DNA of 23,400 nt from a virus. The position numbers were made by a program, and so were the translations under genes. Within the stretch, counting starts at the first letter, position 1. Each line of letters starts with the position of its first letter. Below the pieces are notes generated by a model. It saw only the letters and a list, made by a program, of their open reading frames with translations. It was not told where the DNA came from and did no database searches. The DNA is taken from the IMG/VR virus record IMGVR_UViG_3300044647_001119, positions 1 through 23,400 of that record. One strand, 5' to 3'. Below are positions 4,813 through 22,933 of this stretch, one piece after another.

Positions 4813-4827
4813 ATCAAAATGGTCCTC

Positions 4828-5165: not shown

Positions 5166-5166
5166 T

Positions 5167-7158: not shown

Positions 7159-7161
7159 AAA

Positions 7162-7512: not shown

Positions 7513-7931
7513 GGTGGGACTGTGATTCCGTCACAGACGATAAGCTTGTAAGTTCCGGTGGTTTTTGGTCCAAAAGTTCCGACAACCTCGAACGAAAAAT
7601 CAACGTAGTACGTTCCAGCAGGCCAGATTGCGGTGGACGCACCAGATGCCACAAAGTTGATTGTCGCATTCCCGCTGCCATCAACGGTTCCAGCCACCGT
7701 TCCAAAATCGTAGAGGAGAACGCCTGACGCATCCCTGATCTGAGAGTACCCAACAATTCCCGCCCACGAAATCGGGGGATTCGCCGGAACAAAGAGCGAA
7801 ACGGAAAACTGCTCCCCAATTTTGATGGTCATTACGCCAATAATGGCACAATCATCACCTGAAGGCTGGCATTCGGTAGTCGTCACACATGGTGACGAGC
7901 AGGATGAACCGAAGTATGGTTGCGAAGGCAT
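7509..7931 (-). CDS. Beta-sandwich-like virion protein, first gene of the left operon
   Basis: A 140-residue protein. Its N-terminal 30 residues hold five cysteines (CSSPCVTTTECQPSGDDC), then a beta-sandwich-like domain with IGEQFSVSLFVPANPPISWA, IWPAGTYYVDFSFEVVG and TGTYKLIVCDGITVPP. The layout resembles small Ig-like or baseplate/fibre accessory proteins in tailed phages. AGGAAGG lies just before the ATG, a strong ribosome binding site. It is the first leftward gene, divergent from terminase across 47 bases, so a leftward promoter is expected in that gap or just inside the flanking genes. No family can be named with certainty. Confidence 0.6.
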   Translation of the reverse strand: MPSQPYFGSSCSSPCVTTTECQPSGDDCAIIGVMTIKIGEQFSVSLFVPANPPISWAGIVGYSQIRDASGVLLYDFGTVAGTVDGSGNATINFVASGASTAIWPAGTYYVDFSFEVVGTFGPKTTGTYKLIVCDGITVPP

Positions 7932-7978
7932 AACCTTCCTAAAACTCTGAATCCACGAATCTTTAACGCAAGGTCAAA

Positions 7979-9655
7979 ATGGCAGATCAAACCACTGAGC
8001 ATCCACTAATTCAGCACAAGTATGGAATTCGTTCTCCGGTCAAGATTCCCGATCTTGAGCTTGAGCTTTACGCATTCCGAAACCGGCTCCAGCCCAATGA
8101 GGGCGGACTGGGTACTTTCGACCATTTTGTTAACGCCACCAAAATGCTCTGGCCAAAGATGAGTTGGAATCCGTGGCTTGAAGCTCAAGTCGAAAGCCTC
8201 TGCGAACACGACTACGTTGGATGGGCGGGATGCGGCGCGAGCGGCAAGACCTTTGGAGCAACGCTTTTTGCTACCGTTTGGTGGCTGGCCAATCCTTCCA
8301 AGTCAACGGTTGTCCTGACATCGACGACCGCGAAGATGATCCGCAAGCGTATGTGGGCCAATCTTCAGGATTTGGTTCGTAAGTCTCGCGGGTTTCCAGG
8401 CAACATGGTCGATTCCAAAATGGCCTTACAGGCTGTCAAAGGTGACGACCGCCATTCCATTTCCGCTATCGCCGTCGCCGAAGGTAACACCTCGAAGGCA
8501 GTGGCCAACATCCAAGGTATTCACGCCGAGCGGGTGATGGTCATCATTGACGAAGCTACGGACACCCCCGAGGCAGCGTTCGAGGCTTGTACAAACCTCT
8601 CCAAGGGTTGCCGTGAGTTCAAGATGCTAGTCATCGGAAACCCTGCTTCGAAGTACGATCCGCACGGACGCTTCTGCACACCGGCAAAGGGTTGGCGCAG
8701 TGTCACGATTGAGGATCAGCATTGGCTGACCGAACGCGGGATGTGCCGACGGTTCGACGGCATGAAATCGCCCAATATCAGCGAAGGGCGAACAAAGTAC
8801 CCATACCTCATCACGCACGATCAGGTTTTGTCGGCTATGCGCCATGAGGGCGAGCAAAGCCCCACATTCTGGAAGTACACACGCGGATTCTGGGCACCGG
8901 ACGGCATGGTCAAGACGGTGCTTTCCGAATCACTGATCGAGACGCACACGCCTACAAAGAACTTGGTGTTTACGACCAATGTCCAAATTGTTGCCGGACT
9001 TGATCCGGGCTTTGGCGGCGATAGATGCGTTCTACGCTTTGCCAAGATTGGCACCGCAAACGACAAGGCGAGTGTACTCTTTGGCGATGTAGTTCAAATC
9101 TCACCGAATGCCGCGCTGACCGAGCCGGTGCATTACCAAATAGCCAATCGAGTCAAAGAGGAATGCGCCAAGCGTGGCGTTGCACCGGACAAATTCGCTC
9201 TGGATTCAAGCGGTGAAGGCGGTGGGTTGGCCGACATTCTGACCCGCGAATGGGGTGTGGTTCATCGCGTTGAGTTTGGTGGTTCTCCGTCAACCATCCC
9301 GGTCAGCGACGAGGACAGTAGGCCATGCAATGAAGCATACGACCGCAAGGTGACAGAACTCTGGTTCTCGATGCGAAAATGGGTCGTCGAGGAGCGTGTT
9401 GGTGGTATGGACATCGAGACGTTGCAGGAGTTCTGCGGTCGAATGTTCGACGATTCCAAGCGTAAGATATCGGTCGAATCGAAGACCGTGATGAAGCAAC
9501 GAACCGGAAAATCGCCCGACTTGGCCGACGCTGCTGTAGTCTTGCTTGATCTAGTCCGCAAAACCGCCGCATTTGAACCGCGAGCAAGCAGAATGGATAA
9601 GGTCTGGGAAAAGCTCGTTCGAGATGCTGATTCAATTTATCACGACGACTTATGA
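7979..9655 (+). CDS. terL: Terminase large subunit (DNA packaging ATPase-nuclease)
   Basis: A 558-residue motor protein that powers DNA packaging into the prohead and cuts the concatemer. Residues 84-91 are a Walker A (GCGASGKT) and residues 186-193 a Walker B (VMVIIDEA), with the adjacent Glu expected for catalysis. The C-terminal RNase H-like nuclease shows Asp342 (AGLDPGFGGD), Asp409 (FALDSSGEGGG) and Asp514/Asp517 (KSPDLADAAVVLLDLVR). Length is usual for the family. The ATG follows AAGG by about 6 bases. It starts the rightward block and its stop overlaps the next gene by 4 bases. No small terminase subunit is seen in the window. Confidence 0.93.
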   Translation: MADQTTEHPLIQHKYGIRSPVKIPDLELELYAFRNRLQPNEGGLGTFDHFVNATKMLWPKMSWNPWLEAQVESLCEHDYVGWAGCGASGKTFGATLFATVWWLANPSKSTVVLTSTTAKMIRKRMWANLQDLVRKSRGFPGNMVDSKMALQAVKGDDRHSISAIAVAEGNTSKAVANIQGIHAERVMVIIDEATDTPEAAFEACTNLSKGCREFKMLVIGNPASKYDPHGRFCTPAKGWRSVTIEDQHWLTERGMCRRFDGMKSPNISEGRTKYPYLITHDQVLSAMRHEGEQSPTFWKYTRGFWAPDGMVKTVLSESLIETHTPTKNLVFTTNVQIVAGLDPGFGGDRCVLRFAKIGTANDKASVLFGDVVQISPNAALTEPVHYQIANRVKEECAKRGVAPDKFALDSSGEGGGLADILTREWGVVHRVEFGGSPSTIPVSDEDSRPCNEAYDRKVTELWFSMRKWVVEERVGGMDIETLQEFCGRMFDDSKRKISVESKTVMKQRTGKSPDLADAAVVLLDLVRKTAAFEPRASRMDKVWEKLVRDADSIYHDDL

Positions 9656-10284
9656 GCAGTAACGTCACCGGATACAAAGTGCTGAACGAACACATGGTCA
9701 TCCCTGGCGGGTGGCATTACCGTGTTCCTGAGACTGGCATCGAAATCATGGGTGGATCTTGGCCACAGCTCCATGAGTTCGTTCGTAACCATTACACCGC
9801 CAATGCGATTAAAATTCCCGAAAATCTCGACACGTTAATCACCGAGTATGCGTGTCGTAACGGTGCTGATTGTATGTACAATGAAGTTGAAATCCGTAAG
9901 CCAGAAGGCCGTAAATCGCTCCAAATTGGCGATGTAATCCGCTTCAGCATGAGCCTCTTGCACGGTCTGACCGTTGGCGGAGGCAAAGTAAGCCAAGCGG
10001 AAGCGACTCGAAGAGCGTCAATCTGCTCGACATGCATTTACAACCGTAAGCCGCTCGGATGCACTGGATGCAACGCTCGGGTGCTGAAAGAGGCGGTCAA
10101 AACCTTTTCCCAGCATGGCAGCACACCCCTAGACGAAAGCCTACAAAGCTGCGAATTTTGCGGTTGCTTTATCAGAAGCATGGTGTGGTTTCCCATTGAA
10201 ACACTTCACCGCTTCACGGACGCTACAGAGAACGCAAACTTGCCAGCTTACTGCTGGAAAAAACGACCATGTACGGAAACCTAG
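9652..10284 (+). CDS. Cysteine-rich zinc-ribbon-like protein
   Basis: A 210-residue protein between terminase and portal. It has paired cysteines typical of metal sites: C125-C128 (CSTC), C137-C140 (CTGC), C167-C170-C172 (CEFCGC), and C201 and C207 near the end; C68 and C74 add a further pair. Such zinc-ribbon proteins occur at this position in uncultured phage packaging modules. The first ~100 residues (VIPGGWHYRVPETGIEIMGG) form a separate domain with no recognised fold. The ATG lies in the terminase stop (ATGA), and its end overlaps the portal start by 16 bases, so the three genes are translationally linked. A packaging-accessory or DNA-binding role is inferred only. Confidence 0.6.
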   Translation: MSSNVTGYKVLNEHMVIPGGWHYRVPETGIEIMGGSWPQLHEFVRNHYTANAIKIPENLDTLITEYACRNGADCMYNEVEIRKPEGRKSLQIGDVIRFSMSLLHGLTVGGGKVSQAEATRRASICSTCIYNRKPLGCTGCNARVLKEAVKTFSQHGSTPLDESLQSCEFCGCFIRSMVWFPIETLHRFTDATENANLPAYCWKKRPCTET

Positions 10285-12518
10285 CCCAACTGCCGCTCGA
10301 AACCATTAACGAGGAGGGTAAAGCTCCCGAAACTCGTATTGCCGACGCGGCATCGGCTCGCGAGATATTCCAAAAGCTCATCATGGCCGACGAGTTGCGG
10401 AATAGCACACGCGCAAAGCTCCGTGGTCTTGTTGACGGCAATCCTCCGTACAATCCGGCAGAGCTTCGGCGAAACAACCAAGCGTTCCGTACCAACGTCA
10501 ACTTCCGCGAATCGGAAGCGTTCCTCACGTTGGCCATGTCAGCCTTCTACGATGTGTTCGCCGAAGTTCCGACCTACGCAAATGTCCGTACCGCTTACGG
10601 CAACGACATGGATAAGCGAGAGGAATGGTCGAAGATCATCACCGAGGAGTTTGACCGTCTTCAGAAGCTAGACAAGGACTTCGACTACATCATGCAGCTC
10701 TCGCAGCGTGAGATGGTCCTGATTGGCAATGGTCCGCTAATCTTCGAAGACGGCTCCAATTGGCGGTGCAAGGCCATCATGGCGACGGATCTTCTCGTCC
10801 CCGATGGCACCAAGTCCAATGTCAGCGATTGGAAGGTGGCCTGCGTCCGCACTCGCATGGGCGTGGATGATCTGTTCGAGAAGATCCAAGACGAGCAGGC
10901 GGCGACTGCTGCCGGTTGGGATGTGAACTATGTCCGTCAGCGTATCCGCGCTGCGATGCCTGAGCCGTATCGTTCCGGCGTTCAGTACGATTGGGAGTTT
11001 TTCCAACGCCAGCTTCGCTCGAACGACATTACGTTCTCCGCACGGTCAGAGGTCGTGTTGATGTCCCATATCTTCTACAAGGAGTTCGATGGGCAGATCA
11101 GCCATGCCATCATTGACGAGCGGGACAGCGAGAGCTTCATGTATCGGAAGCTGCGCCGGTTCAAGCGGTGGGAGCAGATCATTCATCCGATGTATTACGA
11201 CCGTGGTGACGGCGAGCATCACGGTGTGAAGGGTCTTGGCATCAAGATGCTTCAGGCGATGGAGCTAAAGAACCGGCTTCGTTGCTCGATGGTGGACAGC
11301 GCGTTCGCTCGTACGCAGATTCTCTTCCGCCCCCTCAACCCGAACGCTCTCAGCAAAACAAGCGTCGTTCAGCAAGGACCGTATGCCATTCTCCCTCCAG
11401 ACTATGAAGTCATTCAGCAGAACATTGCTGGCGTTCTCGACGCTCCTATGGCGGTCAACGCGGACCTTGAGAATGTTCTTCAAGGCAATCTCTCTCAATA
11501 TCGCCAATCGCTCAACAAACCGGCTGGCAACCCACGAACCGCGACTGAAATCCAAGCCATCGTGGCACAGCAGTCAGCAATCGGTAAGACGCAGCTCAGC
11601 CGGTATTACAACCAGCTCGATTCATTCTTCGAAGAGCGGTACAACCGAGCCTCCAATCCCAACCTGAACCCGATTACCAAGTCGGATAAGGACGCGATTG
11701 AGTTCCAGCGTCGTTGCGCCGAACGAGGCGTTCCGGTTCAAGCCATGCTGGACATCGACTTCGTTGAAGCGACTCGCACGGTCGGCCAAGGTTCTCAGTT
11801 CGCGAAACAACAGCTCCTCGGATCTTTGCTCGGACTTCTTGGTTCTCTTCCTGAGGGCGGAAAAGTCAGTCTTTTGCGCGACTACATCGCCGCTCAGGTT
11901 GGCCAACAAATGGTGGATCGTTATCTGCCGACTCAGATCCAGTCTTCGCGAGTTCAGGATCAGACCGCACTGGCTGTTCTGGAGCATTCGTCCTTGCGCC
12001 AGGGCAACATGGCAATCGTCACGGATACGCAGAATCAAATCGTTCACATCGACACGCATCTTGCGGCGGCGAACGAGGCGGCTGCATCGATCCAGCAGGG
12101 CGGCAATCCGCAGGAGATTATGCTCTTCCTGCAAGGCATCGGTCAGCACGTTCAAGATCATCTGGCTCGCTTGTCCACCGATCCTACTCGTCGTCCTCAG
12201 GTCGAGGCGTACGCGCAGCAGCTCCAGATGGTTGTTCAGACCGTTCAGCAGCTTGGTGAGCTGTTGCAGCAGCAACAGGAAGCTCAGGCGCAAATGCAGC
12301 AGGCTCAGGCGATTCAGCAGGGCGTCGATCCAAAGACGGCGATGATGAATGCCGAGGTTCAAGCAAAAATCGCTCGCCAGAACGCCGAAACTATGGCCAA
12401 CATTCAGCGTCAGAACGAGAAGGCGATGGCAGATTTAGCTCGCCGGAATGCGAAGACAACCGCTGATATTCAGCGAGCGAATGCAACTGCCGAGTCTAAC
12501 TTGGCGCGTCAGGGATAA
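10269..12518 (+). CDS. Portal protein
   Basis: A 749-residue portal, the dodecameric ring through which DNA enters and leaves. Recognisable portal features: LVDGNPPYNPAELRRNNQAF (residues ~54-73), an alpha/beta stem-wing core, and PRTATEIQAIVAQQSAIG (about residues 418-435), the Thr-Ala-Thr-Glu motif near the tunnel region. The C-terminus from about residue 665 is Gln/Ala-rich coiled coil, ending in four exact 11-residue units (701-744). It is at the upper end of portal length, which fits podovirus portals with a long C-terminal barrel. It starts 16 bases inside the upstream gene. Methyltransferase starts 5 bases after its stop. Confidence 0.85.
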   Translation: MYGNLAQLPLETINEEGKAPETRIADAASAREIFQKLIMADELRNSTRAKLRGLVDGNPPYNPAELRRNNQAFRTNVNFRESEAFLTLAMSAFYDVFAEVPTYANVRTAYGNDMDKREEWSKIITEEFDRLQKLDKDFDYIMQLSQREMVLIGNGPLIFEDGSNWRCKAIMATDLLVPDGTKSNVSDWKVACVRTRMGVDDLFEKIQDEQAATAAGWDVNYVRQRIRAAMPEPYRSGVQYDWEFFQRQLRSNDITFSARSEVVLMSHIFYKEFDGQISHAIIDERDSESFMYRKLRRFKRWEQIIHPMYYDRGDGEHHGVKGLGIKMLQAMELKNRLRCSMVDSAFARTQILFRPLNPNALSKTSVVQQGPYAILPPDYEVIQQNIAGVLDAPMAVNADLENVLQGNLSQYRQSLNKPAGNPRTATEIQAIVAQQSAIGKTQLSRYYNQLDSFFEERYNRASNPNLNPITKSDKDAIEFQRRCAERGVPVQAMLDIDFVEATRTVGQGSQFAKQQLLGSLLGLLGSLPEGGKVSLLRDYIAAQVGQQMVDRYLPTQIQSSRVQDQTALAVLEHSSLRQGNMAIVTDTQNQIVHIDTHLAAANEAAASIQQGGNPQEIMLFLQGIGQHVQDHLARLSTDPTRRPQVEAYAQQLQMVVQTVQQLGELLQQQQEAQAQMQQAQAIQQGVDPKTAMMNAEVQAKIARQNAETMANIQRQNEKAMADLARRNAKTTADIQRANATAESNLARQG

Positions 12519-12523
12519 GAATT

Positions 12524-13141
12524 ATGGGAAACGAAGAAAACATTGTTCAATTCATCGCCGACAACTTCCCGAAGATGGGCGGTTGGTGCGATCCGAAAAA
12601 AGGTTTGGAAATCGCCAAACTTGTTCTCGAAACGAAACCGCAGCGCATTGCTGAAGTTGGTGTTTTCGAAGGCAAGTCCACGCTCGCACTCGCCCAAGCC
12701 TGCAAGCTGAACGGAAGCGGAACCGTCTACGCTATCGATTCTTGGAAGAAAGAAGACTGCATCGACGACGAGACGAATGCCAATCAGGAATGGTGGGCGA
12801 CACTCGATCTGGACAAGCATTACGAATCTTTCGTTGGTCATTGCGTTCGCGCGCAGGTCGTAAAGCAGATTCAGTTCTGCCGAATGTCCTCATGGGATGC
12901 GTCACGGTTTCTGCCCGACATGGACATGGTTCACATCGACGCCAATCACGCCGAATGGCCTTCTACGAGCGATGTCGTCAACTGGCTTCCGAAGCTCAAG
13001 GTTGGCGGCTACATCGTGATGGACGATGTGAACTGGGAATCGACCCAGACTGCTCTCAAGTTCGTCATGAAACGCTGCGAATTTGTTTCGCGATTTGATC
13101 TGAGCGAGAGCGTTTTTGCTATCTATCGAAAACTGAAATAA
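12524..13141 (+). CDS. Class I SAM-dependent methyltransferase (Methyltransf_24-like)
   Basis: A 205-residue protein. Motif I is IAEVGVFEGKSTLALA (residues 42-57), with the acidic residue of motif II at VYAIDSW (Asp72). A third conserved piece is DMVHIDANHAEW (about 133-144), followed by LKVGGYIVMDDVNW. This arrangement is that of the Methyltransf_24 group, frequently found in sugar or surface-modification clusters. It opens the five-gene cassette between portal and scaffold. The start has a GGATAAGAATT leader, a weak Shine-Dalgarno. The methyl acceptor is unknown; a glycan or nucleotide-sugar-linked substrate is inferred from neighbours. Confidence 0.75.
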   Translation: MGNEENIVQFIADNFPKMGGWCDPKKGLEIAKLVLETKPQRIAEVGVFEGKSTLALAQACKLNGSGTVYAIDSWKKEDCIDDETNANQEWWATLDLDKHYESFVGHCVRAQVVKQIQFCRMSSWDASRFLPDMDMVHIDANHAEWPSTSDVVNWLPKLKVGGYIVMDDVNWESTQTALKFVMKRCEFVSRFDLSESVFAIYRKLK

Positions 13142-13145
13142 CCCC

Positions 13146-13748
13146 GTGCAAACGGTCGTTATCACGATGCGAGGCAGTTCTCGCATCCCGCGCCTACAAA
13201 GAAACCTTGATTCCGCTGGAATCACGGACTACCGCATTTTCTATGGCCTGAACGGCGCGAAGTCCGGCCTGAAAGCGAGCATTCCATACGAGATAGATGC
13301 TCCCGGCTCAGGCTACCTCATCTGCTCCAAGCACGTTGGATGCAGCATGTCCCATTGGATGCTATGGAACGCGCTGGATTTCGATCCTTCCACGCCGGAC
13401 ATGGTGATGGTCCTAGAGGACGACATCCTATTCCGTCCGCATTGGCGCGAAACAATCGAACGTGCGCTGACAAAGCTGCCCGAGGATTGGGATATTCTCT
13501 ATCCTGGCTCTTGTTGCGCGCATGGAAAGCTCTCACGCGAGCTGGATTCAAACCTCTTCGAAGGAATGCCGCTTTGCACTCACTGCTACATCGTCCGCAA
13601 AAAGGCTCTCAAGACTCTCATCGAGACGAACGAAGAGGTCTTTGCACCAATCGATTTGCAGATGTACTTCAAGAGCCGCCAGCATCTGAAATGTTTCACA
13701 ATTTTCCCGCGAGTTGCCGATCAAGAAGACTGCGCTTTAGCCGACTAA
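13146..13748 (+). CDS. Glycosyltransferase family 25-like (copy A)
   Basis: A 200-residue protein starting at GTG, 4 bases after the preceding stop. It has the GT25 pattern: VVITMRGSSRIPRLQRNL at the N-terminus, GCSMSHWMLWNAL (residues 65-77), VLEDDILF with the metal-binding-like EDD at 91-93, LPEDWDILYPGSCC (111-124), CTHCYIVRKKAL, and APIDLQM at 167-173. GT25 enzymes transfer hexoses, often in LPS outer core. It is paralogous to the gene at 14340: both share EDD, GSCCA, SNL, CTH, ETN, PID-QM and PR-A-QE. It is shorter than many GT25s but keeps the core. Donor and acceptor cannot be read from sequence. Confidence 0.75.
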   Translation: MQTVVITMRGSSRIPRLQRNLDSAGITDYRIFYGLNGAKSGLKASIPYEIDAPGSGYLICSKHVGCSMSHWMLWNALDFDPSTPDMVMVLEDDILFRPHWRETIERALTKLPEDWDILYPGSCCAHGKLSRELDSNLFEGMPLCTHCYIVRKKALKTLIETNEEVFAPIDLQMYFKSRQHLKCFTIFPRVADQEDCALAD

Positions 13749-13752
13749 AATT

Positions 13753-14343
13753 ATGGGTTCACCTTTCAATGGAGACACATTCATCGAGCAGGAGTTTCTT
13801 TACCTCAAAGAACGCTTCGAGCTGACGACCGCTGTCGAAACCGGCACTCACGAAGCGGACACTACCGTTTGGTTGGCCAAGAACTTCCTCAAGACCGTTT
13901 CATGCGAGCTGAACCACGACTTGGTTGAGAAAGCTAAGGAGAAGTTCAAACGCGAGAATGTCTACGCTGAGATGTTCGAGGGCAGTAGCGATGCCTGCAT
14001 GAACTGGTTCATTCCGCATCACGGAATTGGACACGACACAATCTTCTTTCTCGACGCCCACTGGAACGACTACCTGCCGCTGCTCGAAGAGCTTGAGGCA
14101 ATCAATCGCTACGATCTGCATCCGGTCATTGCCATCCACGACTTCAAGGAACCGACCGGACAGCTTGGATACGACAGTTACAATGGCCACGACATTTGTC
14201 TTGGCTACGTCAAGGAGAAGCTGGACGCGATTTACCGCGCCAAGACGCTGACACAGAAGTACGGCTACAGCTTCTACTACAACCACCCTAGCCGATGCGT
14301 AGGTGCGCGTCGCGGCATCATCTACATCCTCCCGAACCGATGA
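13753..14343 (+). CDS. Second SAM methyltransferase-like protein
   Basis: A 196-residue protein. AVETGTHEADTTVWLA (residues 27-42) resembles the glycine-containing SAM-binding loop, VSCELN (49-54) supplies the acidic residue after strand two, and IFFLDAHWNDYLPLLEEL (98-115) with Asp101-Ala-His103 resembles the DAHW segment of class I methyltransferases. HPVIAIHDF (123-131) adds another conserved Asp. It differs clearly from the upstream methyltransferase, so it is not a simple duplicate. It sits between the two paralogous glycosyltransferases; ATT leader, ATG 5 bases after the previous stop. Substrate unknown; sugar methylation is inferred from context. Confidence 0.65.
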   Translation: MGSPFNGDTFIEQEFLYLKERFELTTAVETGTHEADTTVWLAKNFLKTVSCELNHDLVEKAKEKFKRENVYAEMFEGSSDACMNWFIPHHGIGHDTIFFLDAHWNDYLPLLEELEAINRYDLHPVIAIHDFKEPTGQLGYDSYNGHDICLGYVKEKLDAIYRAKTLTQKYGYSFYYNHPSRCVGARRGIIYILPNR

Positions 14344-14969
14344 AACTACAGCTCGAAAAGACGCCGTGCTTCATCATCTCGAAGCCTGAGAGTGAGAAGG
14401 AGCGACGCTGCATCCGCTACATGAAGTCATTCGGAATCGATGCGGTTCCGATGTACGGATTCAGGGCTGAGAACTGCGGCATATCGACCGACTACTACCA
14501 CACACGCGAGAAGGAGAAGGCGAAGGTCAAAACAATCGTCGCCGGACTCAGCCATTTTTCTGTCTGGTCGGCCATCAAGTGGATGGTCGAGTCGAAGATA
14601 ACCGATCATCGCACATTTCTCATCGTCGAGGATGACGTTGAGTTCACATGCTCCGATTGGAAGAAAAAGCTGGCCGACAATCTGGACTATCTCCCGAGCG
14701 ACTGGCATGTCGTCTACATCGGAAGCTGCTGCGCCGACCCGATTGAAGACCACGGCTACATCGCGTCGAACCTTTACAAGCTCGTTCGCGGCATGTGTAC
14801 GCATGCTTACCTTGTAAATTACGAAGGTGTCTGCAAACTCCTCGAAACGAACCAGAAGGTTTGGTGTCCAATCGACATCCAGATGCTGGTCGATTCGATG
14901 CCTAGAATGAACTTTTACGGGATTCTTCCGAGGCTCGCGACGCAGGAGAACACAAAATTGTATCCATAA
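14340..14969 (+). CDS. Glycosyltransferase family 25-like (copy B)
   Basis: A 209-residue protein. The chosen ATG overlaps the preceding stop (ATGA); an in-frame start 45 bases upstream lies inside the previous gene and is not preferred. Family marks: PCFIISKPESEKERRC at the start, GLSHFSVWSAIKWM (69-82), LIVEDDVEF with EDD at 97-99, LPSDWHVVYIGSCCADP (118-134), MCTHAYLV (152-159), CPIDIQML (176-183) and LPRLATQEN near the end. It is paralogous to the gene at 13146 but diverged over most of its length, so the two likely transfer different sugars or act at different positions. Its stop shares a base with the next ATG. Confidence 0.75.
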   Translation: MKLQLEKTPCFIISKPESEKERRCIRYMKSFGIDAVPMYGFRAENCGISTDYYHTREKEKAKVKTIVAGLSHFSVWSAIKWMVESKITDHRTFLIVEDDVEFTCSDWKKKLADNLDYLPSDWHVVYIGSCCADPIEDHGYIASNLYKLVRGMCTHAYLVNYEGVCKLLETNQKVWCPIDIQMLVDSMPRMNFYGILPRLATQENTKLYP

Positions 14970-16321
14970 TGAAAGACATTATACGAAGTCTGTCTCTTAA
15001 AGCTCTCAAGCGGTTTGCAAATGGTGGTGATGGTCAGGCCGATTTGCTCATGCAGATCGAGGATTTGCGAAAGACGCTTGAGATTCGAGCTAAAGAACAT
15101 GAAGAGCATCTGACCGAGGTCCGCGAGGAACGCGATCATTGGCTTTCCCAATACGACGAAATCAAATTCGCAGCAGAGTTTCTAATGAGCTACGCAAAAA
15201 ACGACGTACCCAAGCTGGCCGAACAATGCGACTGGGAGGTTGGTAAAATCACGCTTCCTGAGGAGGTTGGAACGTACTACTTCAACCCTGCAATCATTCA
15301 GGAACCAAACGGTCAGATCCTGCTTTTCACCCGACGCTGCCGCAATAAGCGCGAGAAGGACGAGGACGTTTACCTTGAGAAAAACGACATCGTTATCTTC
15401 GAGCTGACCAAGGATCTTGGAGCAATCAAGAAGGCGTTGCTCAACCTTACCTCGCATTTTCCAAACGAGCAGTTCGAAGATCCGCGCATCGTCAAGTTCG
15501 GCGACAAGTACGGCCTAAGCTGCTGCACATTTGTTCCATTCAAGAGCTACGCGCATCAGGCGATGTTCGTCTTGGACAAGCAGTTCCTGAATGTTGCCCG
15601 ATTCGATCCGATCTACGGAAACAACTACGCCCAGGCGATGGTGAACGATGGCCATGAAAAGAACTGGCTCTATTTCACGCACGATAACGCGCCACACATG
15701 GTGTATTCGGCCAATCCTCATGTCGTAGTACGCCTTAATGGGCGTCTTGAGAAGGAAGCGGAGTACGTCACAGACGAGTTCAATCCGCTCTGGAAGTTTG
15801 GCGAGGTGCGCGGCGGCTCGAATCCGATTCTGGTCGATGGCTTGTACTGGACCTTCTTCCACAGTTCATTGCCGTGGATCAACAAGAAGCGTCGTTACTA
15901 CATGGGAGCGTACGCATTCGAGGCTAAGGCACCGTTCCGCATTGCTCGGATGACAACGTTGCCGCTTCTCACCGGCACGAATCAGCAGGACTGGTGGCCG
16001 GGATTACCTGCGGTAGTGTTCCCGTGCGGAGCGTTCTACGACAGCGCAAAGAATCATTTCGTCGTCTCGTACGGCATCAACGACGTTGATTGCGGCTACA
16101 TCAAGCTACCGTTGGCCGACATGCTGGAGGTTACGAAGGTGATTCGACCCAAGCGCGATGTCGTCAACAAGGAGAAGCCGATGAAGCTAGACGACATTCT
16201 CGACCCAATTCCGCAGAGGCATAAACTCAAACGACATCTAACAACACGATATGATCAATTGGCTAAGAGGCTCGACGAAGAACCGCAAGGAGACAGTGAA
16301 GAACCTGATGGAGCTGCCTGA
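14969..16321 (+). CDS. GH130-like five-bladed propeller protein with coiled-coil N-terminus
   Basis: A 450-residue protein. Residues ~20-65 are a charged helix, probably coiled coil. Residues ~95-395 follow the order of motifs of glycoside hydrolase family 130 (mannoside phosphorylases and related hydrolases): YYFNPAII (103-110), EDPRIV (170-175, where family members carry the proton-donor Asp), HEKNWLYF (229-236), VRGGSNPIL (280-288) with GLYWTFFH to His298, a strand YYMGAYAFE, and FPCGAFY plus VSYGIND (351-372). Family members use phosphate or water to break beta-mannosides, and related proteins act as mannosyltransferases. The C-terminal ~55 residues are basic/acidic and unassigned. The ATG shares a base with the stop of GT25 copy B. 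Catalytic competence is not proven. Confidence 0.55.
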   Translation: MKDIIRSLSLKALKRFANGGDGQADLLMQIEDLRKTLEIRAKEHEEHLTEVREERDHWLSQYDEIKFAAEFLMSYAKNDVPKLAEQCDWEVGKITLPEEVGTYYFNPAIIQEPNGQILLFTRRCRNKREKDEDVYLEKNDIVIFELTKDLGAIKKALLNLTSHFPNEQFEDPRIVKFGDKYGLSCCTFVPFKSYAHQAMFVLDKQFLNVARFDPIYGNNYAQAMVNDGHEKNWLYFTHDNAPHMVYSANPHVVVRLNGRLEKEAEYVTDEFNPLWKFGEVRGGSNPILVDGLYWTFFHSSLPWINKKRRYYMGAYAFEAKAPFRIARMTTLPLLTGTNQQDWWPGLPAVVFPCGAFYDSAKNHFVVSYGINDVDCGYIKLPLADMLEVTKVIRPKRDVVNKEKPMKLDDILDPIPQRHKLKRHLTTRYDQLAKRLDEEPQGDSEEPDGAA

Positions 16322-16583
16322 GGTAAATATCCAAGATTGGATAGATTCCGATCAGCATGCTGAGCTAGGAAAGATCCTCAGAACTCCAATTCTACGCATG
16401 GCAATTCGTATCGTTGCAGAGTCGATGCCTATCCCGATGCCATCCAATGTGAGCAAGGAATCGGACATTATTTTCGCTGCCGGTGTAACCGCTGGCTACG
16501 CGCATTGTCTTGAAAACCTTCGAAAATTGTCGGTGAATGACACTACTAAGGAACCTGAAGCAACCTTTGATAAGCAAAACTAA
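16308..16583 (+). CDS. Small helical protein upstream of the scaffold gene
   Basis: A 91-residue protein from the chosen ATG, with possible in-frame starts at 16251 (ATG) and 16296 (GTG). The 16308 start overlaps the preceding gene by 14 bases, similar to other junctions; AAGGAG lies at 16287-16292, spaced poorly for each choice. The sequence is helical-looking: MELPEVNIQDWIDSDQHAEL, then LRMAIRIVAESMPIPMPSN and a Gly/Ala-containing segment with GYAHCLENLRKL. No family is recognised. Its place just before the scaffold-like gene suggests a head-assembly accessory, which is inference only. Confidence 0.55.
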   Translation: MELPEVNIQDWIDSDQHAELGKILRTPILRMAIRIVAESMPIPMPSNVSKESDIIFAAGVTAGYAHCLENLRKLSVNDTTKEPEATFDKQN

Positions 16584-16591
16584 CTAACACT

Positions 16592-17755
16592 ATGGAAGAA
16601 CCACTTAATACACCTCTGGTAAACTCGGCGCAAATGCCGGACTTCGGCAGTTCATTCATCGAGGCATTCAAGGCAAGCGGTCTTGAGGACGCTGCATCGG
16701 CTGATGAATCGGCCAATTCTGCCTCGCAGGTTGTTGAGCAGAAGCAACCGAAAGCTGACAGCACGGCGAAGCCTAACAAGTCCGAGATGGACATCGAGCG
16801 GTTGTTTGGCGCGAAGAAAGCTGACGCAGTCGCCAAGGATTCAGCAGCCGCTGATTCGGACATTCCTGAGTCGATCAAGTCCACGAAGGCCGCTGATGCT
16901 TTCCGTAAGATCAAGGAGGAGAAGGCGCAGCTCGCGAAACAATTAGAGGAGCTGAAGGCTGGCAAGACTGCCAATCCGAACTTCGAAGCTCAGCTCAAGA
17001 CCTTGCAGGAAGAGCGTGATGCGCTTTCTGAGCGTGTCCGATTGCTCGACATCGAGCGTCACCCTGAGTTTGTTAAGAAGTACGAGGGAAAGATCAATGG
17101 CGTCTTCGAATCGGTGAAGGGTCTTGTCGGCACCGATGGAGAACGGCTTGTTGGCCTACTCAAGTCGCCTGAGAGCGACTACCGGAACTCGCAGATCGAC
17201 GACATCGTTGAAGGTCTTTCACCGGCCAAGAAGGCGAAGCTCGGTGCGTTGATCGTCAAGTACGACGAGATTAACGGCGAAAAGACTGCGGAGATGTCTG
17301 AGGCGAAAGCTGATTACGATGCGGTCATCTCGAAATACCAGAAGGACAACGAAGAGGGTACTAAGGCTGCATTGGAGTCGGCCAGTAAGACCTGGGCGAA
17401 GGTGAGCGAGAACGCTCGCGCACTTGAAATCTTCGAACCGCGTGAGGGCGACGAGGAATGGAACGGTGAATTGAACCAGCGTCTGAGCCTCGCCAAGCAG
17501 ATATTCAATGGTGAGAACAGCGAAGAAGACCTCGCCAAGGCCGCTCTTTGGGCCGCTGCCGCGCCGAAATACCGTGAGCTTCTCTATTCTCAGGTCGAGG
17601 TAAACAAACGCTTGCAAGCCGAACTAGCGAAGTATCGTGGCAGCGAGCCGGGAGTCAGTTCGAAGGCGACGAATCCTGGCTTGAAGTCGGCGAATGTAAA
17701 CGCTGCCAAGAGCGAGGACTTCGTTGCGAGTGTCTTGAAGTCGTTGGGACGCTGA
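16592..17755 (+). CDS. Scaffold-like coiled-coil head assembly protein
   Basis: A 387-residue highly charged, Ala/Lys/Glu-rich protein with a disordered N-terminus (residues ~1-90), a long coiled-coil region (DAFRKIKEEKAQLAKQLEEL, residues ~101-120, then LKTLQEERDALSERVRLLDI, about 136-155), further helices and a disordered C-terminus ending in FVASVLKSLGR. Composition and location downstream of the portal resemble phage scaffolding proteins, which template prohead assembly and then leave. The capsid gene is not adjacent but lies on the opposite strand about 4 kb away. It is the last rightward gene; a terminator follows at 17764-17795. No Shine-Dalgarno precedes the ATG. Could instead be another internal head protein. 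Confidence 0.65.
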   Translation: MEEPLNTPLVNSAQMPDFGSSFIEAFKASGLEDAASADESANSASQVVEQKQPKADSTAKPNKSEMDIERLFGAKKADAVAKDSAAADSDIPESIKSTKAADAFRKIKEEKAQLAKQLEELKAGKTANPNFEAQLKTLQEERDALSERVRLLDIERHPEFVKKYEGKINGVFESVKGLVGTDGERLVGLLKSPESDYRNSQIDDIVEGLSPAKKAKLGALIVKYDEINGEKTAEMSEAKADYDAVISKYQKDNEEGTKAALESASKTWAKVSENARALEIFEPREGDEEWNGELNQRLSLAKQIFNGENSEEDLAKAALWAAAAPKYRELLYSQVEVNKRLQAELAKYRGSEPGVSSKATNPGLKSANVNAAKSEDFVASVLKSLGR

Positions 17756-17763
17756 AAACAATT

Positions 17764-17798
17764 ATCCCCCGATGGTTTCTTAGCCACCGGGGGATTTT
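17764..17798 (+). terminator. Rho-independent terminator after the scaffold gene
   Basis: A 12-bp stem with one A-C mismatch (ATCCCCCGATGG with CCACCGGGGGAT), an 8-base loop (17776-17783) and a following TTTT run. It lies 9 bases after the scaffold stop. In reverse it is preceded by AAAA and followed by AATTGTTTT, so it may also stop leftward transcripts from the lysis operon, whose last gene ends at 17807. This is the convergence point of the two transcription blocks. Confidence 0.85.
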
Positions 17799-17806
17799 CG
17801 TTTCAA

Positions 17807-17953
17807 TTACTTGCCTCGATAAGGACCGCTTCCGCTCGGAACCGGCCTAGGCTGAGGTCGAACAGGCGGCTTAGGGGGAGGAGACTGCTTGTAAGGTCCG
17901 CTTCCACTGCCACCGACGGCGGGAGAACCTTTATACGGCGCGTTATTGCTCAT
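17807..17953 (-). CDS. 48-residue Pro/Gly-rich small protein, last gene of lysis operon
   Basis: The ATG overlaps the stop of the lipoprotein-like gene by 4 bases (ATGA), which supports it being translated. The sequence begins MSNNAPYKGSPAVGG and ends SGSGPYRGK; SGSGPY occurs twice (residues ~16-21 and 40-45) with a PYKGS near the start and a Pro-rich middle (PPPKPPVRPQPRPVPS). It has no membrane segment. Proline-rich tails are known in spanin proteins, so a link to the lysis cassette is possible, but its function is unknown. It ends about 10 bases from the terminator. Confidence 0.6.
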   Translation of the reverse strand: MSNNAPYKGSPAVGGSGSGPYKQSPPPKPPVRPQPRPVPSGSGPYRGK

Positions 17954-18180
17954 TCTTTTGGAAGTGCATACCAGCCTTCATGGATGGTGATGCGGTTATT
18001 ACTACGCACGTTTTTGCCGTTCGCGTCAACCACCCAAACTTTCGCTTTAACGCTCTCAGCAAGGCGCACAGGCTCACCGTGGGGGACGTAAATCACTCGA
18101 CTCGCGCAGCTCACGCTCATGCTCGCGCACACGATCAAGAAGACCGCGCTTAAGATCAGATTGTTTCTTGGCGTCTTCAC
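17950..18180 (-). CDS. Lipoprotein-like small protein, candidate outer-membrane spanin
   Basis: A 76-residue protein starting at GTG (18180), inside and out of frame with the gene at 18253. Residues 1-28 are signal-like: MKTPRNN positive start, then LILSAVFLIVCASMSVSCAS with Cys18 and Cys25; SVSC is an imperfect lipobox, so lipidation is possible, not certain. The rest (VIYVPHGEPVRLAESVKAKV, then WVVDANGKNV and ITIHEGWYALPKE) resembles small conserved phage proteins of lysis regions. The overlap with the upstream small gene is the classic Rz/Rz1-like arrangement, which suggests a two-component spanin that joins inner and outer membranes. Alternative: host-surface exclusion lipoprotein. Confidence 0.6.
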   Translation of the reverse strand: MKTPRNNLILSAVFLIVCASMSVSCASRVIYVPHGEPVRLAESVKAKVWVVDANGKNVRSNNRITIHEGWYALPKE

Positions 18181-18253
18181 TTGAGATGTCTTGTTTCGTC
18201 AGTGCATGAAGCCAGATGACCAACTTCATCACCAAGTCGGCCAAGAAGTTCAT
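18074..18253 (-). CDS. 59-residue candidate inner-membrane spanin (overlaps lipoprotein gene)
   Basis: The ATG overlaps the holin-like gene stop by 4 bases (ATGA). Residues 1-18 (MNFLADLVMKLVIWLHAL) are hydrophobic and could anchor in the membrane; residues ~22-53 are a highly charged helix (DAKKQSDLKRGLLDRVREHE continuing to LREL-type sequence), coiled-coil-like. This matches the shape of an inner-membrane spanin with a periplasmic coiled coil, though it is shorter than typical Rz. It shares 107 bases with the lipoprotein-like gene, which is read in another frame. Support is positional plus composition; no family match was computed. Confidence 0.6.
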   Translation of the reverse strand: MNFLADLVMKLVIWLHALTKQDISSEDAKKQSDLKRGLLDRVREHERELRESSDLRPPR

Positions 18254-18429
18254 TCAGTCTTCGAGGCGTTCTTCTTATTGTTGAAGATCGACCAAGCGAC
18301 TCCGATGATGCTGACGGCGGCACCGGCAAGTTCGGCGACTTGATCGGCACTGGCCAAACCTTTGGCGACGAGGAAACCGCCAGCGGCGGAGAGAAGATGG
18401 CGGATGAGAGAGGTGAAGTTAGGGTTCAT
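18250..18429 (-). CDS. Holin-like membrane protein (Pam3-gp28-like)
   Basis: A 59-residue protein. It has two hydrophobic stretches (about residues 8-24, SLIRHLLSAAGGFLVAKGLA region, and 33-49, ELAGAAVSIIGVAWSIF), an intervening short loop with ADQ, and a basic C-terminus (NNKKNASK). Size, spacing and sequence resemble a small holin family found in several tailed phages, such as Pam3-gp28. Holins form the lesion that begins lysis. The ATG overlaps the upstream holin-like gene stop (ATGA) and its own stop overlaps the spanin-like start (ATGA). No endolysin lies beside it. Confidence 0.65.
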   Translation of the reverse strand: MNPNFTSLIRHLLSAAGGFLVAKGLASADQVAELAGAAVSIIGVAWSIFNNKKNASKTE

Positions 18430-18608
18430 TTGATTTTGCGGTAAAGGTCGATGGCTTTTGCTAGACAGACGAGAAGAGCGGTGACGGCACCTAACGCGAG
18501 CGATGCCGTCTTGAGATTCGGGTCTGAGAAAATCGCGTTCCCGAGAATGCCGATGAATGGTCCACTAGCAGCGGCAATCATGTCTCGCATAAAATGGGAC
18601 TCAGTCAT
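18426..18608 (-). CDS. Second holin-like membrane protein
   Basis: A 60-residue protein. Two hydrophobic segments are visible: MIAAASGPFIGILGNAIF (about residues 10-27) and LKTASLALGAVTALLVCLAK (about 32-51), followed by a charged end IDLYRKIK. The two-segment plan is typical of small holins or antiholins. It is followed directly, with a 4-base overlap, by another holin-like gene, so one may be the holin and the other its antagonist or a pinholin. The upstream gene ends 10 bases before its ATG. The exact role of each cannot be read from the sequence. Confidence 0.55.
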   Translation of the reverse strand: MTESHFMRDMIAAASGPFIGILGNAIFSDPNLKTASLALGAVTALLVCLAKAIDLYRKIK

Positions 18609-18618
18609 GGCGTGATGA

Positions 18619-18849
18619 TCAGCTCAGGGCAACCCTGATGGAGTTCTCGTTGGAGTCAACGAACGGAAAGCCCATGACGTAGCCGATCGGCAAGATCCGT
18701 GCGATGACCATGCCGGACGCATCGGGTGGCTCAATTTCCGCCGAGGTGACTACGGTGCCACCGACGATCTTGTCCTCCGAAACCTTGATCGAAGGGTCAA
18801 AGATGATGGTTTCGAGCGGCTCGGTTTTGATTGCGAGTTCGGTTTCCAT
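18619..18849 (-). CDS. 76-residue hypothetical protein between fibre and holin genes
   Basis: Begins METELAIKTEPLETIIFDPS and continues with VSEDKIVGGTVVTSAEIEPP, then MVIARILPIGYVMGFPFV. It looks like a compact beta-rich domain with no membrane segment and no catalytic motif. It starts 3 bases after the fibre stop and ends 10 bases before the holin-like start, so it is in the same leftward operon. It does not look like an endolysin: it is too short and has no muramidase or amidase residues. Function unknown; a fibre chaperone or tail accessory is a guess from position. Confidence 0.6.
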   Translation of the reverse strand: METELAIKTEPLETIIFDPSIKVSEDKIVGGTVVTSAEIEPPDASGMVIARILPIGYVMGFPFVDSNENSIRVALS

Positions 18850-18852
18850 AGA

Positions 18853-20556
18853 TCAAGCGGCGATGGTGTAGAGGATGGTGAATTGGAGCGTCACGGCTGC
18901 GGAACTGTTCACCCACAGATTGCCGGTGGTGCTGAACGGTGTGGCGATGGTGAGCTTCTGTCGGCCAGAGACAACCGATGCAGCATTGACGATCTGGGTG
19001 CCAGCGGAGACGTTGCCGAGACTCACGGTAGCCGATCCGGTCGAGTTGACGATTACGTCCTCGATGATGGCGTTGGTCGGGATGGCCAACGAACCAAGGA
19101 GTTGAGTGTTGCCAAACGCAGTAGTCGTCGCATAGAGAACCGCCATACGCCTCGGCTGCGTGAACTCAACACCGTTGAACAGCGTACCGTGCAGCGCGTT
19201 GGTCGAGCGGTCGGTGGCTTGGTAGCCGGTGCCAACGGTGAAGTCGAGGTCTACGATTGCGCCGATTCGGGTGAATGTGACGTTATCGATCCAAATTGAA
19301 CCATTTAATGATCCAACAAATCGACCAATGGTAAATGTATCTGTTCCGCCACCTTCAGTCACAAACTCAAATACTCTTTCCTGCCAGCTCAAGTTGTCCA
19401 AAACAGCACCAAACGCAGAAAACGACGCAGAACCAACATTAACCGCCAACCTGCCATTGGTTGCCGTCGATCTTGCAAAACAGGATACGCGATAGCGTTT
19501 ATTTCTTGCAAAAGTTACAGACTGAAGGTTTACAGAGCTTCCGGTAATATCCAAATCAAACCGGCATGATGCGGTTCCAGCGTAGAATATTGATGTATCG
19601 CGATTGATCGTGGAAGACCCTGATGTTACTTCAGTCCAATTAGCAAACACATCAGCGCCGCCACCTCCAGCGGTTTCAAAACCGCCATTGAGTGTGCTTG
19701 CATTGATAATATCCGTCTGCGTCCCCCACTGATCCGCCGGATTCACGCCGAGGGTGATAAGCTCGGTGACATCCGCAGCGGACAGTGCGCGGTTGAAGAC
19801 GACGGAGCGGTAAACCCTCTTATCGAAGACTTGAGAAGCCGTAAAGTAGCCACCGACTCGAAGATTGGCTGCTGCGCTAAGACTGATATTTCCAGTCGTG
19901 TTTGTGAGTGTGTATGCAGAACCGTTGACGTAGACAGAAAATACACCAGCACTACGCACCAAAACGAAATCAACAATTTGTCCGGCAAATGCAGCCCCAG
20001 TAAATCCAGTGATGGTTGCATTGGAGGCAACCCCTCCAATTGTCTTATCCAAGCCGTAAGCACCCGAAGATGTTGTCAGTCCAAAGTAGTTGTTTGCGTC
20101 TTCTACTACCGAAAATACGGCTTTAGCCGTTGCCTGTGAAATCTTGAACCGGCACCAGATTGAGAAGTCGCCCGTGCCAATGGCTTGTCCCGTCAGCGTC
20201 GAGGAAATCCGCGTGCTTGCCGTCGTCCCATCGAAGTTCACAGCAGCGTAGTCGGAAGCAGCGGCGCGGATGGCGGAGGGGGTGTCACCATTACGCGCAG
20301 CAAAGGTTCCGCTCAGCACCAAGTTGACGAGCGACATCGTATCGGTTGACGGATTGTACGTCATCCCGGCATCGCCAGCGATTGCAGTTCCGTTATTGAA
20401 CAGCACCTGATTCGTAGCCCCAGGTAGGCCAGTGCCACCTCCTAGAGCCGTGTACAGCTCCGTGAAGTTGCTGTTCGTGTACTGGAATGCCGTCCGCAGC
20501 GGACTCCCCGTTCCGTCGTTGGCTGAGGCTCCGACATTGATCGTTTGCTGTGCCAT
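18853..20556 (-). CDS. Tail fibre with LamG-like and carbohydrate-binding-like domains
   Basis: A 567-residue fibre. The N-terminus (INVGASANDGTGSPLRTAFQ, then TNSNFTELYTAL, residues ~5-38) is a well-known T4-like/cyanophage fibre start. Residues ~105-275 resemble a LamG/concanavalin-like domain (GDFSIWCRFKI; VYVNGSAYTLTN; DKRVYRSVVFNRALSAADV). Residues ~290-435 resemble a CBM4/9-type carbohydrate-binding domain (NGGFETAGGG; YRVSCFARSTATNGRLAVNV; SIWIDNVTFTRIG). The C-terminal ~100 residues are another beta-rich domain (LLGSLAIPTNAIIEDVIVNS). The middle DNA, about 19270-20115, is AT-richer than its flanks, consistent with domain exchange. Role: host-surface glycan recognition, inferred. Confidence 0.7.
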   Translation of the reverse strand: MAQQTINVGASANDGTGSPLRTAFQYTNSNFTELYTALGGGTGLPGATNQVLFNNGTAIAGDAGMTYNPSTDTMSLVNLVLSGTFAARNGDTPSAIRAAASDYAAVNFDGTTASTRISSTLTGQAIGTGDFSIWCRFKISQATAKAVFSVVEDANNYFGLTTSSGAYGLDKTIGGVASNATITGFTGAAFAGQIVDFVLVRSAGVFSVYVNGSAYTLTNTTGNISLSAAANLRVGGYFTASQVFDKRVYRSVVFNRALSAADVTELITLGVNPADQWGTQTDIINASTLNGGFETAGGGGADVFANWTEVTSGSSTINRDTSIFYAGTASCRFDLDITGSSVNLQSVTFARNKRYRVSCFARSTATNGRLAVNVGSASFSAFGAVLDNLSWQERVFEFVTEGGGTDTFTIGRFVGSLNGSIWIDNVTFTRIGAIVDLDFTVGTGYQATDRSTNALHGTLFNGVEFTQPRRMAVLYATTTAFGNTQLLGSLAIPTNAIIEDVIVNSTGSATVSLGNVSAGTQIVNAASVVSGRQKLTIATPFSTTGNLWVNSSAAVTLQFTILYTIAA

Positions 20557-20582
20557 AGTATGAAGTGTTTCCTAAACCGTTG

Positions 20583-20807
20583 TTAAAATTGGGTCTGATC
20601 CGCAGTAATGGTCGTCACATCGGCAGTAATCGAAGTCAAATCCGCCGTCAGCGGAAATCCGACCGAACCACCGCTAGAATCAGAAATGCGATTCAAAAGC
20701 GCAAGCTCAAGCATGTCCATCTCCCACGGAGAACGACATCCAGTCGCCGAAACCTCGGCAATCAACTGAGCAGCTTCCGTACAAGTGATGGATGATGCGT
20801 CGGCCAT
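20583..20807 (-). CDS. 74-residue structural protein with TAD repeats
   Basis: The first ~45 residues (ITCTEAAQLIAEVSATGCRS, PWEMDMLELALLNRISD) closely match the N-terminus of the adjacent gene at 20809-21252. The C-terminus has three 7-residue TAD units (LTADLTS, ITADVTT, ITADQTQ), also seen in the nozzle-like protein at 1834-3687. It starts 1 base after the upstream gene. It looks like a truncated or domain-split paralogue of its neighbour: same head, different tail. Role probably virion decoration or fibre-associated, inferred from the company it keeps. Confidence 0.6.
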   Translation of the reverse strand: MADASSITCTEAAQLIAEVSATGCRSPWEMDMLELALLNRISDSSGGSVGFPLTADLTSITADVTTITADQTQF

Positions 20808-20808
20808 G

Positions 20809-21252
20809 TTATTGGTGAGCTATGATGAACCACGCTGTTCCGTTGCTTATGAATTCAACCCTCTGCCATTGAGCGGTCAAAACATGAGTCGCGGCACCAT
20901 CAATCGTTTCAGCACCAAACGGATCGACAGTCACATTGTTCGCGCCAGCATTCACCCGCTTCACGAAAAATATACGACCATTGGCCGTCGCAGCCGGGGG
21001 AAGCGAAACCGTAATCGCTCCCGATGTCGAATTTGCGATAATCGCGAAATCATTCGACAAAATCGCCGTGGACGCCGTCACCGAACGAGCAGTTCCAAAC
21101 CCAGCAGCATTAGCCGCCGCCGTTCCAGTTCCATCAGCAATGCGATTGAGAAGCGCAAGTTTCGCCATCTCACGCTCCCACGGCGAGCGACATCCAAGAG
21201 GCTGAACCTCACTTAGCAACGTCGCTGTTTCAGTGCATGTAATGTCAGCCAT
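20809..21252 (-). CDS. 147-residue head/fibre-like protein, paralogue of the downstream gene
   Basis: Residues 1-40 (ITCTETATLLSEVQPLGCRS, PWEREMAKLALLNRIAD) match the next gene. Residues ~65-147 form a recurrent phage fibre-end domain: DFAIIANSTSGAITVSLPPA, ANGRIFFVKRVNAGANNVTV, AETIDGAATHVL and WQRVEFISNGTAWFII. That domain occurs at the tips of small fibres in many tailed phages. It is 17 bases downstream of the acidic protein gene. It may be a head fibre or short tail fibre; placing it after the capsid gene favours a head-decorating role, but this is uncertain. Confidence 0.6.
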   Translation of the reverse strand: MADITCTETATLLSEVQPLGCRSPWEREMAKLALLNRIADGTGTAAANAAGFGTARSVTASTAILSNDFAIIANSTSGAITVSLPPAATANGRIFFVKRVNAGANNVTVDPFGAETIDGAATHVLTAQWQRVEFISNGTAWFIIAHQ

Positions 21253-21269
21253 ACGCTTTTATCTTTGAA

Positions 21270-21554: not shown

Positions 21555-21597
21555 ACGGGGAGCATCAGATCCTACTGATCCTTGTCAATGCAAAAGC

Positions 21598-21628
21598 AAA
21601 AACCCGCAAGCCTTTTGGACCTGCGGGT
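21598..21628 (-). terminator. Rho-independent terminator after the capsid gene
   Basis: Read on the minus strand: an 11-bp stem with two G-U pairs (ACCCGCAGGTC with GGCTTGCGGGT), a short CAAAA-type loop and a run of five T (21598-21602). It begins 21 bases after the capsid stop and precedes the acidic protein gene. It would stop or reduce transcription after the capsid gene, allowing high capsid expression relative to genes further left. Confidence 0.85.
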
Positions 21629-21649
21629 CTGTTACTTATCCAACTCGAA

Positions 21650-22897: not shown

Positions 22898-22933
22898 AAT
22901 GAGTAAAATTAAAACCGACGTTATCTGCGTTAT

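Follow-up and report, generated by a model that had tools for sequence, protein, structure and literature searches.

Why would a phage keep a run of glycosyltransferase and methyltransferase genes among its packaging and head genes, and what would their products decorate? The question is raised by the 23,400-base virus record IMGVR_UViG_3300044647_001119 from IMG/VR (positions 1 to 23,400, hereafter the window), in which two methyltransferase genes, two glycosyltransferase genes and a GH130-like gene follow a portal-like gene at 12524-16321. An earlier note, made from the letters without database searches, had read these five genes as one cassette that makes or remodels a methylated oligosaccharide. 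We find that cassette swapping at this site is gene-precise, with contents that differ on similar phage backbones. The best explanation, which we hold to be probable, is a virion-glycosylation locus shuffled by recombination, whose cassette probably sets the kind of methylated sugars carried on the virus particle. The site is built as follows.

10269-12518, plus strand: portal-like protein, labelled from position and size only; 5' anchor of the cassette site.
12516-12518, plus strand: 5' swap boundary, the portal stop codon (blastn against contigs L086, L087, L025 and L099/L008, the last two being one contig).
12524-13141, plus strand: MTa, Methyltransf_24-type methyltransferase (PF13578, 3.6e-20); variable cassette.
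13146-13748, plus strand, GTG start: GTa, GT25 glycosyltransferase (PF01755, 3.9e-10); variable cassette.
13753-14343, plus strand: MTb, predicted class I S-adenosylmethionine (SAM) methyltransferase fold (AlphaFold2 model and Foldseek; Pfam weak); variable cassette.
14340-14969, plus strand: GTb, divergent GT25 (PF01755, 5e-4, below cut-off; 35% to GTa; EDD motif); variable cassette.
14968-14971, plus strand: 3' swap boundary, the GH130 start codon (blastn; homology is back in L086, L087 and L025).
14969-16321, plus strand: GH130-like protein (PF04041, 9e-9), fixed core gene; 3' anchor of the cassette site.

All five genes exist as open reading frames at 12524-16321, and they are as tightly linked as the earlier note described, by overlaps or gaps of 5 bases or less. 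Spacers measure 5 bases (portal/MTa), 4 bases (MTa/GTa) and 4 bases (GTa/MTb). MTb and GTb overlap by 4 bases if GTb starts at the in-frame ATG at 14340, its likely start within a frame listed as 14295-14969, and GTb overlaps the GH130-like gene by 1 base.

Relatives were drawn from IMG/VR with a portal query (best 80 of 166 matches) and a GH130 query (best 80 of 136). From 173 loci with both flanks, 78 were left once identical cassette-plus-flank DNA was removed. Among these, L083 is a second copy of the window whose flank is cut; when only cassette DNA is compared, the count falls to 75 loci, and the number of architectures stays at ten. All loci are metagenomic contigs, where strain chimeras occur; most architectures recur in several contigs, and three are single. 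One contig (L019, IMGVR_UViG_3300021962_000056) measures 92.5 kb, about twice the long contigs examined (41.7-47.7 kb), and is possibly a concatemer or a larger relative.

Across relatives the portal, GH130, small reading-frame and scaffold-like genes are constant, while the interval between portal and GH130 varies. Every portal-fetched locus that reaches far enough carries both a cassette and the GH130-like gene (59 of 59; the remaining 21 of the 80 end too soon). Nine gene families combine into ten architectures of two to five genes and 1.2-3.1 kb. The window's MTa-GTa-MTb-GTb accounts for 31 of the 78 loci, GT32-MT11-MTa-GTa for 17, GT2-MTb-GTb and GT32-MT11-GT25c-MTc for 8 each, MTa-GTa for 5, GT32-GT25c-MTc for 4 and MTa-GTa-MTb-GTb-MTc for 2. 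GT2-MTa-MTb-GTb, GT32-MT11-GT25c and GTa-MTb-GTb-MTc were each seen at a single locus. The GH130-like gene is present whichever cassette occupies the site, and its product is 81-100% identical to that of the window in 74 of the 78 groups and 77-79% identical in a few farther loci. It is a fixed gene of the phage lineage and not part of the variable cassette. The idea of one conserved five-gene set, as the earlier note had it, gives way to a window architecture that is one of ten beside a constant GH130-like neighbour.

The exchange follows gene boundaries. In blastn comparisons with L086, L087 and L025, homology stops at 12516, in the portal stop codon, and is back at 14968-14969, at the GH130 start. 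Against the L099/L008 contig it is back at 13747, shortly ahead of MTb. L084 lacks GTa alone and has a GT2-type gene in front of MTa. At the junctions, genes meet in start/stop overlaps or lie a few bases apart. A portal DNA tree of 68 rows required at least 26 architecture changes, compared with a mean of 38.5 and a minimum of 35 in 100 shuffles; a GH130 tree of 71 rows gave 25 changes. As the changes are many and yet fewer than in shuffles, architecture partly follows ancestry but turns over often. Among equal-length pairs with more than 96% portal DNA identity, 52 of 105 differ in architecture, at identities of up to 99.7%.

Cassette type was only weakly tied to other genes. Its association with 15 other genes, given portal distance, reached a partial rho of at most 0.14 (300 uncorrected permutations each, 32-65 groups per gene). 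The neighbouring GH130-like gene and, weakly, the fibre stand out: the observed value was reached in 0 permutations for GH130, 3 for fib373, 10 for g147, 23 for TerL, 35 for t267 and 36 for t617, and in at least 94 of 300 for the remaining genes.

Two contigs yield an observation to which no weight is given. L004 matches the window without a difference over 269-12331, shows six mismatches at 12332-12449, late in the portal gene, and then carries a GT32-type cassette; its segment 12064-13326 joins the window at 12332-12516, and the retrieved part of its cassette is identical to that of L087. L083, which shares with L004 the metagenome number in its name, is identical to the window over 12233-22989. 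The pair looks like two alleles in one population, or may reflect a strain-chimeric assembly.

Ten different contents at one place would also fit a generic auxiliary-gene hotspot, where genes of unrelated use gather behind the portal and share no common pathway. We consider this very improbable. The assigned genes are all glycosyltransferases or methyltransferases, and 78 of 78 cassette loci have one or more GT25 genes together with one or more methyltransferase genes. The families are also faithful to the site: 45 of 45 GT32-type relatives in IMG/VR follow the portal directly (43 reach GH130 and two end before it), and GT2-type relatives lie at the site in 11 of 12, the twelfth being 26% identical on a 128-kb contig with no other gene of this phage; both scans pick up mainly close relatives. 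The earlier note would have counted itself refuted had related phages carried these genes only singly and in unrelated places; the outcome was the opposite, with two to five genes together at this site. Purifying selection on the window's four genes likewise speaks against a hotspot. Ratios of nonsynonymous to synonymous substitution rates (dN/dS) were 0.02-0.12 against eight hand-chosen relatives where dS was obtained; many dS values exceeded 1, and the GTa of L011 and two other cassette comparisons gave none. By this measure the four genes look functional.

We then turn to the chemistry that the cassettes would perform. GTa scores above the PF01755 cut-off (40.4 bits against 24), while GTb scores below it (20.4 bits), and its GT25 kinship rests on 35% identity to GTa. 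An acidic EDD motif, which we take to have a role in GT25-type enzymes, is invariant in 21 of 21 aligned GT25-type sequences. In the PDB, the GT25 profile matches best to 'putative glycosyltransferase R655' and to procollagen galactosyltransferase 1, a protein glycosyltransferase, followed by a 'glycosyltransferase family 25 protein'. For MTb, no Pfam match exceeds the cut-off (best 0.088). The AlphaFold2 model of MTb (mean predicted local distance difference test score, pLDDT, 70) matches SAM methyltransferase folds in Foldseek. At E ≤ 1e-3 there were 93 PDB matches; those listed, 50 in number, are methyltransferases or other enzymes with that fold, at template modelling scores by query of 0.33-0.55. 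From this predicted Rossmann-like fold, MTb is assigned as a putative class I SAM methyltransferase. In other alleles, Pfam identifies Gly_transf_sug (presumably GT32, and called GT32-type here), a Methyltransf_11-type enzyme, a canonical GT25 (1.6e-24) and a second Methyltransf_24. A GT2/Glyco_transf_7C-type enzyme in L008, just above cut-off (23.3 against 23), is missing from the window's allele. Glycan and methyl chemistry, as first proposed, is supported by the gene families. The individual calls for MTa, GTa and GH130 stand above Pfam cut-offs; GTb is a sub-threshold GT25, and MTb was placed by predicted fold only.

The GH130-like protein scores 35.1 bits against PF04041 (cut-off 26), with about 100 N-terminal residues outside the family match. 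An EDPR motif is invariant in 25 of 25 aligned sequences; we take it to be the DPR motif of GH130 that holds the catalytic Asp. The protein resembles GH130 proteins such as Lin0857 in sequence over the catalytic domain, EDPR included, and differs from them in its unmatched N-terminus and in scores far below the NCBIfam equivalog cut-offs for beta-mannobiose phosphorylase (38.7 against 550 bits and 35.1 against 450 bits). GH130 enzymes fold as a five-bladed propeller; the AlphaFold2 model of this protein had a mean pLDDT of 39.1 and was not usable.

Where would such enzymes act? By hydropathy, 14 cassette representatives contain no transmembrane-type segment, apart from one methyltransferase stretch above 1.6 (19-mer mean 1.75), which we read as a putative SAM-binding motif. 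Among the cassette families identified by Pfam there is no sugar-nucleotide, flippase or polymerase family. Together these observations make it probable that the products use an acceptor that is already in the cytoplasm and modify it there. Bacterial O-antigen and capsule loci also hold variable glycan genes between conserved flanking genes and would work alike; the present locus lies on a phage genome and has no identified polymerase, flippase or nucleotide-sugar gene. The gtrABC serotype-conversion cluster encodes a membrane flippase and membrane glucosyltransferases, unlike the 14 representatives, in which that single methyltransferase stretch is the exception.

The closest precedent, and a strong one, is found in the cluster O (Corndog-like) mycobacteriophages. 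PMC4351075 places an O-methyltransferase and three glycosyltransferases in the interval from portal to capsid protease, detects the Corndog enzymes in infected cells and not among virion proteins, and proposes capsid modification from mass spectrometry. According to PMC11600133, which cites Freeman et al. 2023, the cluster O enzymes modify capsid and tail tube. In the records of Firecracker, Dylan and Catdawg, the portal is directly followed by a methyltransferase gene and three others, ahead of head-assembly genes; one of the four is annotated as hypothetical in two of the three records. The Catdawg methyltransferase passes the TylF and Methyltransf_24 cut-offs (Methyltransf_24, 37.4 against 26.3 bits), and its last cassette gene just passes GT25 (24.5 against 24 bits). 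Of the other two Catdawg genes, one has a sub-threshold GT2/Glyco_transf_7C match only and one has no matches.

The likeness to our window is one of family and layout. Methyltransf_24 and GT25 are above cut-off on both sides (MTa and GTa here), methyltransferase and glycosyltransferases come directly after the portal (a positional label in the window), and four overlapping genes are joined to the portal by a 4-base overlap that is also seen in several alleles here. BLASTP of the Catdawg GT25 found GT25c (1e-9), GTa2 (2e-7) and GTa (4e-4); the GT2/Glyco_transf_7C-type enzymes, above cut-off in L008 and sub-threshold in Catdawg, gave E 4.8 against each other. In contrast to cluster O, the present lineage is a different one, with ten architectures swapped at gene boundaries, GT32-type enzymes and several methyltransferase families, and a constant GH130-like partner; the 7.5 kb fetched from cluster O contains no annotated GH130 (hypothetical proteins there were left out of profiling). 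The earlier note was not aware of a described pathway with this gene set, a statement that needs amending in light of cluster O, where an O-methyltransferase and three glycosyltransferases occupy the same position. Its view of virion modification as a serious option is supported. In open-licence literature, judged mostly from titles and the starts of abstracts, we found no account of a variable portal-GH130 cassette or of this lineage.

The main rival is modification of the host surface, in which the enzymes alter a glycan of the cell, be it the lipopolysaccharide core, the capsule or some other, and thereby keep other phages, or progeny of the phage itself, from adsorbing to the infected or lysed cell (superinfection exclusion). 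The GT25 family is named for lipopolysaccharide biosynthesis, and cassette type has a weak association with the variable fibre (partial rho 0.096). That association is weaker than expected of exclusion, which should track the receptor used. Variable glycosyltransferases in a host-recognition cluster of the structural region of pelagimyophages are read as O-chain modification in PMC7029224. As in our loci, these enzymes are encoded inside the structural region; the island of the pelagimyophages, which are aquatic phages, has a mean of 44.6 kb and includes tail fibres, whereas here 1.2-3.1 kb are exchanged at one site apart from the fibre genes. PMC8008677 reads likewise a gut 'Gratiaviridae' glycosyltransferase that lies beside a kinase gene between portal and major capsid protein. 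Set against these readings are the near-complete lack of transmembrane-type segments, the cluster O precedent, which points to virions, and co-location with head genes, which would suggest late expression, when exclusion is least useful. We regard host-surface modification as rather unlikely and, given the cluster O precedent and the probably cytoplasmic action of the products, favour glycosylation of the virion.

Several points weigh against virion glycosylation nonetheless. The acceptor and the identity of the glycan are matters we infer, as is late expression, and the portal and scaffold labels are positional. GT25 is also the classic lipopolysaccharide family. The Catdawg methyltransferase and the other two Catdawg genes had no convincing BLASTP match to the cassettes here, so that the two systems are not orthologous as wholes, and the three cluster O cassettes compared share 98-100% identity, unlike the variability seen here. 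No cultured relative turned up in the phage collection searched: tblastn with the portal and megablast with the terminase-scaffold stretch gave no match, and the GH130-like protein gave one weak partial match (26.9% over 26% of the protein). A portal scan of genome contigs found no relative, and a GT25 scan found three bacterial loci at 25-32%; on these results we put forward no host.

A third target is the phage genome itself, if the glycosyltransferases decorate modified bases as a defence against restriction. Clusters for DNA base glycosylation include a TET or hydroxymethylase partner gene. No TET/JBP or hydroxymethylase family was found among 13 proteins scanned (10 by Pfam, 13 by PHROGs, with others unscanned) from G001, a near-identical 47.7-kb contig; these 13 lie outside or at the edge of the window. 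One PHROG match of MTa is named DNA methyltransferase (6e-16), and phage glycosyltransferases can act on DNA, as noted in PMC12619734. The cassette sits with packaging and head genes, which argues against a role on DNA, and we give DNA hypermodification very little credence.

Under virion glycosylation, soluble phage glycosyltransferases (GT25 and, in other alleles, GT32-type and GT2-type) would attach a short glycan to proteins of the virion, in the cytoplasm and while it is being assembled; the sugars of this glycan would be methylated by one or more SAM methyltransferases. Different cassettes would then yield different methylated glycans, giving near-identical phages different coats. The GH130-like protein would be the partner that stays the same, perhaps an enzyme that trims the glycan or acts by phosphorolysis. 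Homologous recombination within portal and GH130, the conserved flanks, may exchange cassettes as a whole and also individual genes at start/stop junctions, and RecE/RecT-like proteins of the phage itself might assist. G001 encodes a RecE-like exonuclease, a RecT-like annealing protein, single-stranded DNA-binding-like proteins and a resolvase, a plausible engine for cassette exchange; the RecE-like exonuclease VIII adjoins the RecT-like annealing protein at L162:6349-7973 of this contig.

The fibre-like protein at 3691-4812 (minus strand) has an N-terminal collagen-like GPRGQAGTNGTNGTNGID stretch, and similar stretches occur in the alleles listed. Its NGT repeats could be glycan acceptors. 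A collagen-like fibre as acceptor is possible as speculation, from the GxxGTNGTNG-type repeats and the match of the GT25 profile to procollagen galactosyltransferase; lysine is absent from the listed repeats, and the scanned proteins included no hydroxylase. Between fibre and terminase, a three-gene block at 5167-7931 (minus strand; 663, 116 and 140 aa) forms a second variable module. In this interval, 51 of 57 relatives with both flanks have no open reading frame of at least 100 aa on that strand, and 6 of 57 have one.

The cassette lies in a same-strand gene run, with start/stop overlaps, from the terminase gene (7979) to the scaffold-like gene. Its other members are as follows.

7979-9655, plus strand: terminase large subunit (PHROG_2, 1e-22), first gene of the run.
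9652-10284, plus strand: 210-aa cysteine-rich protein between terminase and portal-like protein; open reading frame found in relatives.
16308-16583, plus strand: small open reading frame (listed start 16251), in 71 of the 78 cassette groups.
16592-17755, plus strand: scaffold-like protein, labelled from position and composition only.

The terminase assignment is supported by its profile match. The portal-like protein had no significant match in Pfam, PHROGs or PDB sequences, as single sequence or profile. It also showed no similarity to the 740-aa connector of MW202879, a phage whose terminase is 25-26% identical, so 'portal' stays a positional label. The scaffold-like protein had no match above cut-off in Pfam or PHROGs. 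Of the genomic position first described, co-location with packaging and head genes stands, while the names portal and scaffold rest on position, size and composition. The cysteine-rich protein has several CxxC pairs that are kept in relatives, with no significant Pfam or PHROG match. Within 7700-18000, promoter-like (5 against 6.0) and terminator-like (11 against 12.0) sites were not above shuffles. A twelve-pair, terminator-like inverted repeat lies at 17764-17795, between the scaffold-like gene and convergent genes on the opposite strand.

A few cultured phages, cluster O among them, are known to have glycosylated virions; here the same layout turns up in a lineage that has no cultured relative in the collection searched. 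This locus differs from cluster O in that its content varies, a GH130-like partner is always present, GT32-type enzymes and additional methyltransferase families occur, and the phage lineage is another. Allele pairs on similar backbones make cassette function directly testable. Contents that differ between near-identical phages would imply that something in nature reads the glycan of the particle (or of the cell) and favours its diversity. Tentatively, the site may be viewed as a phage 'glyco-serotype' locus: one lineage would hold a pool of interchangeable methylated-glycan cassettes beside a constant GH130-like anchor, recombined between near-identical genomes, and each virion type would wear a different coat under frequency-dependent selection (by defence sensing, grazers or particle adhesion), as in bacterial O-antigen loci.

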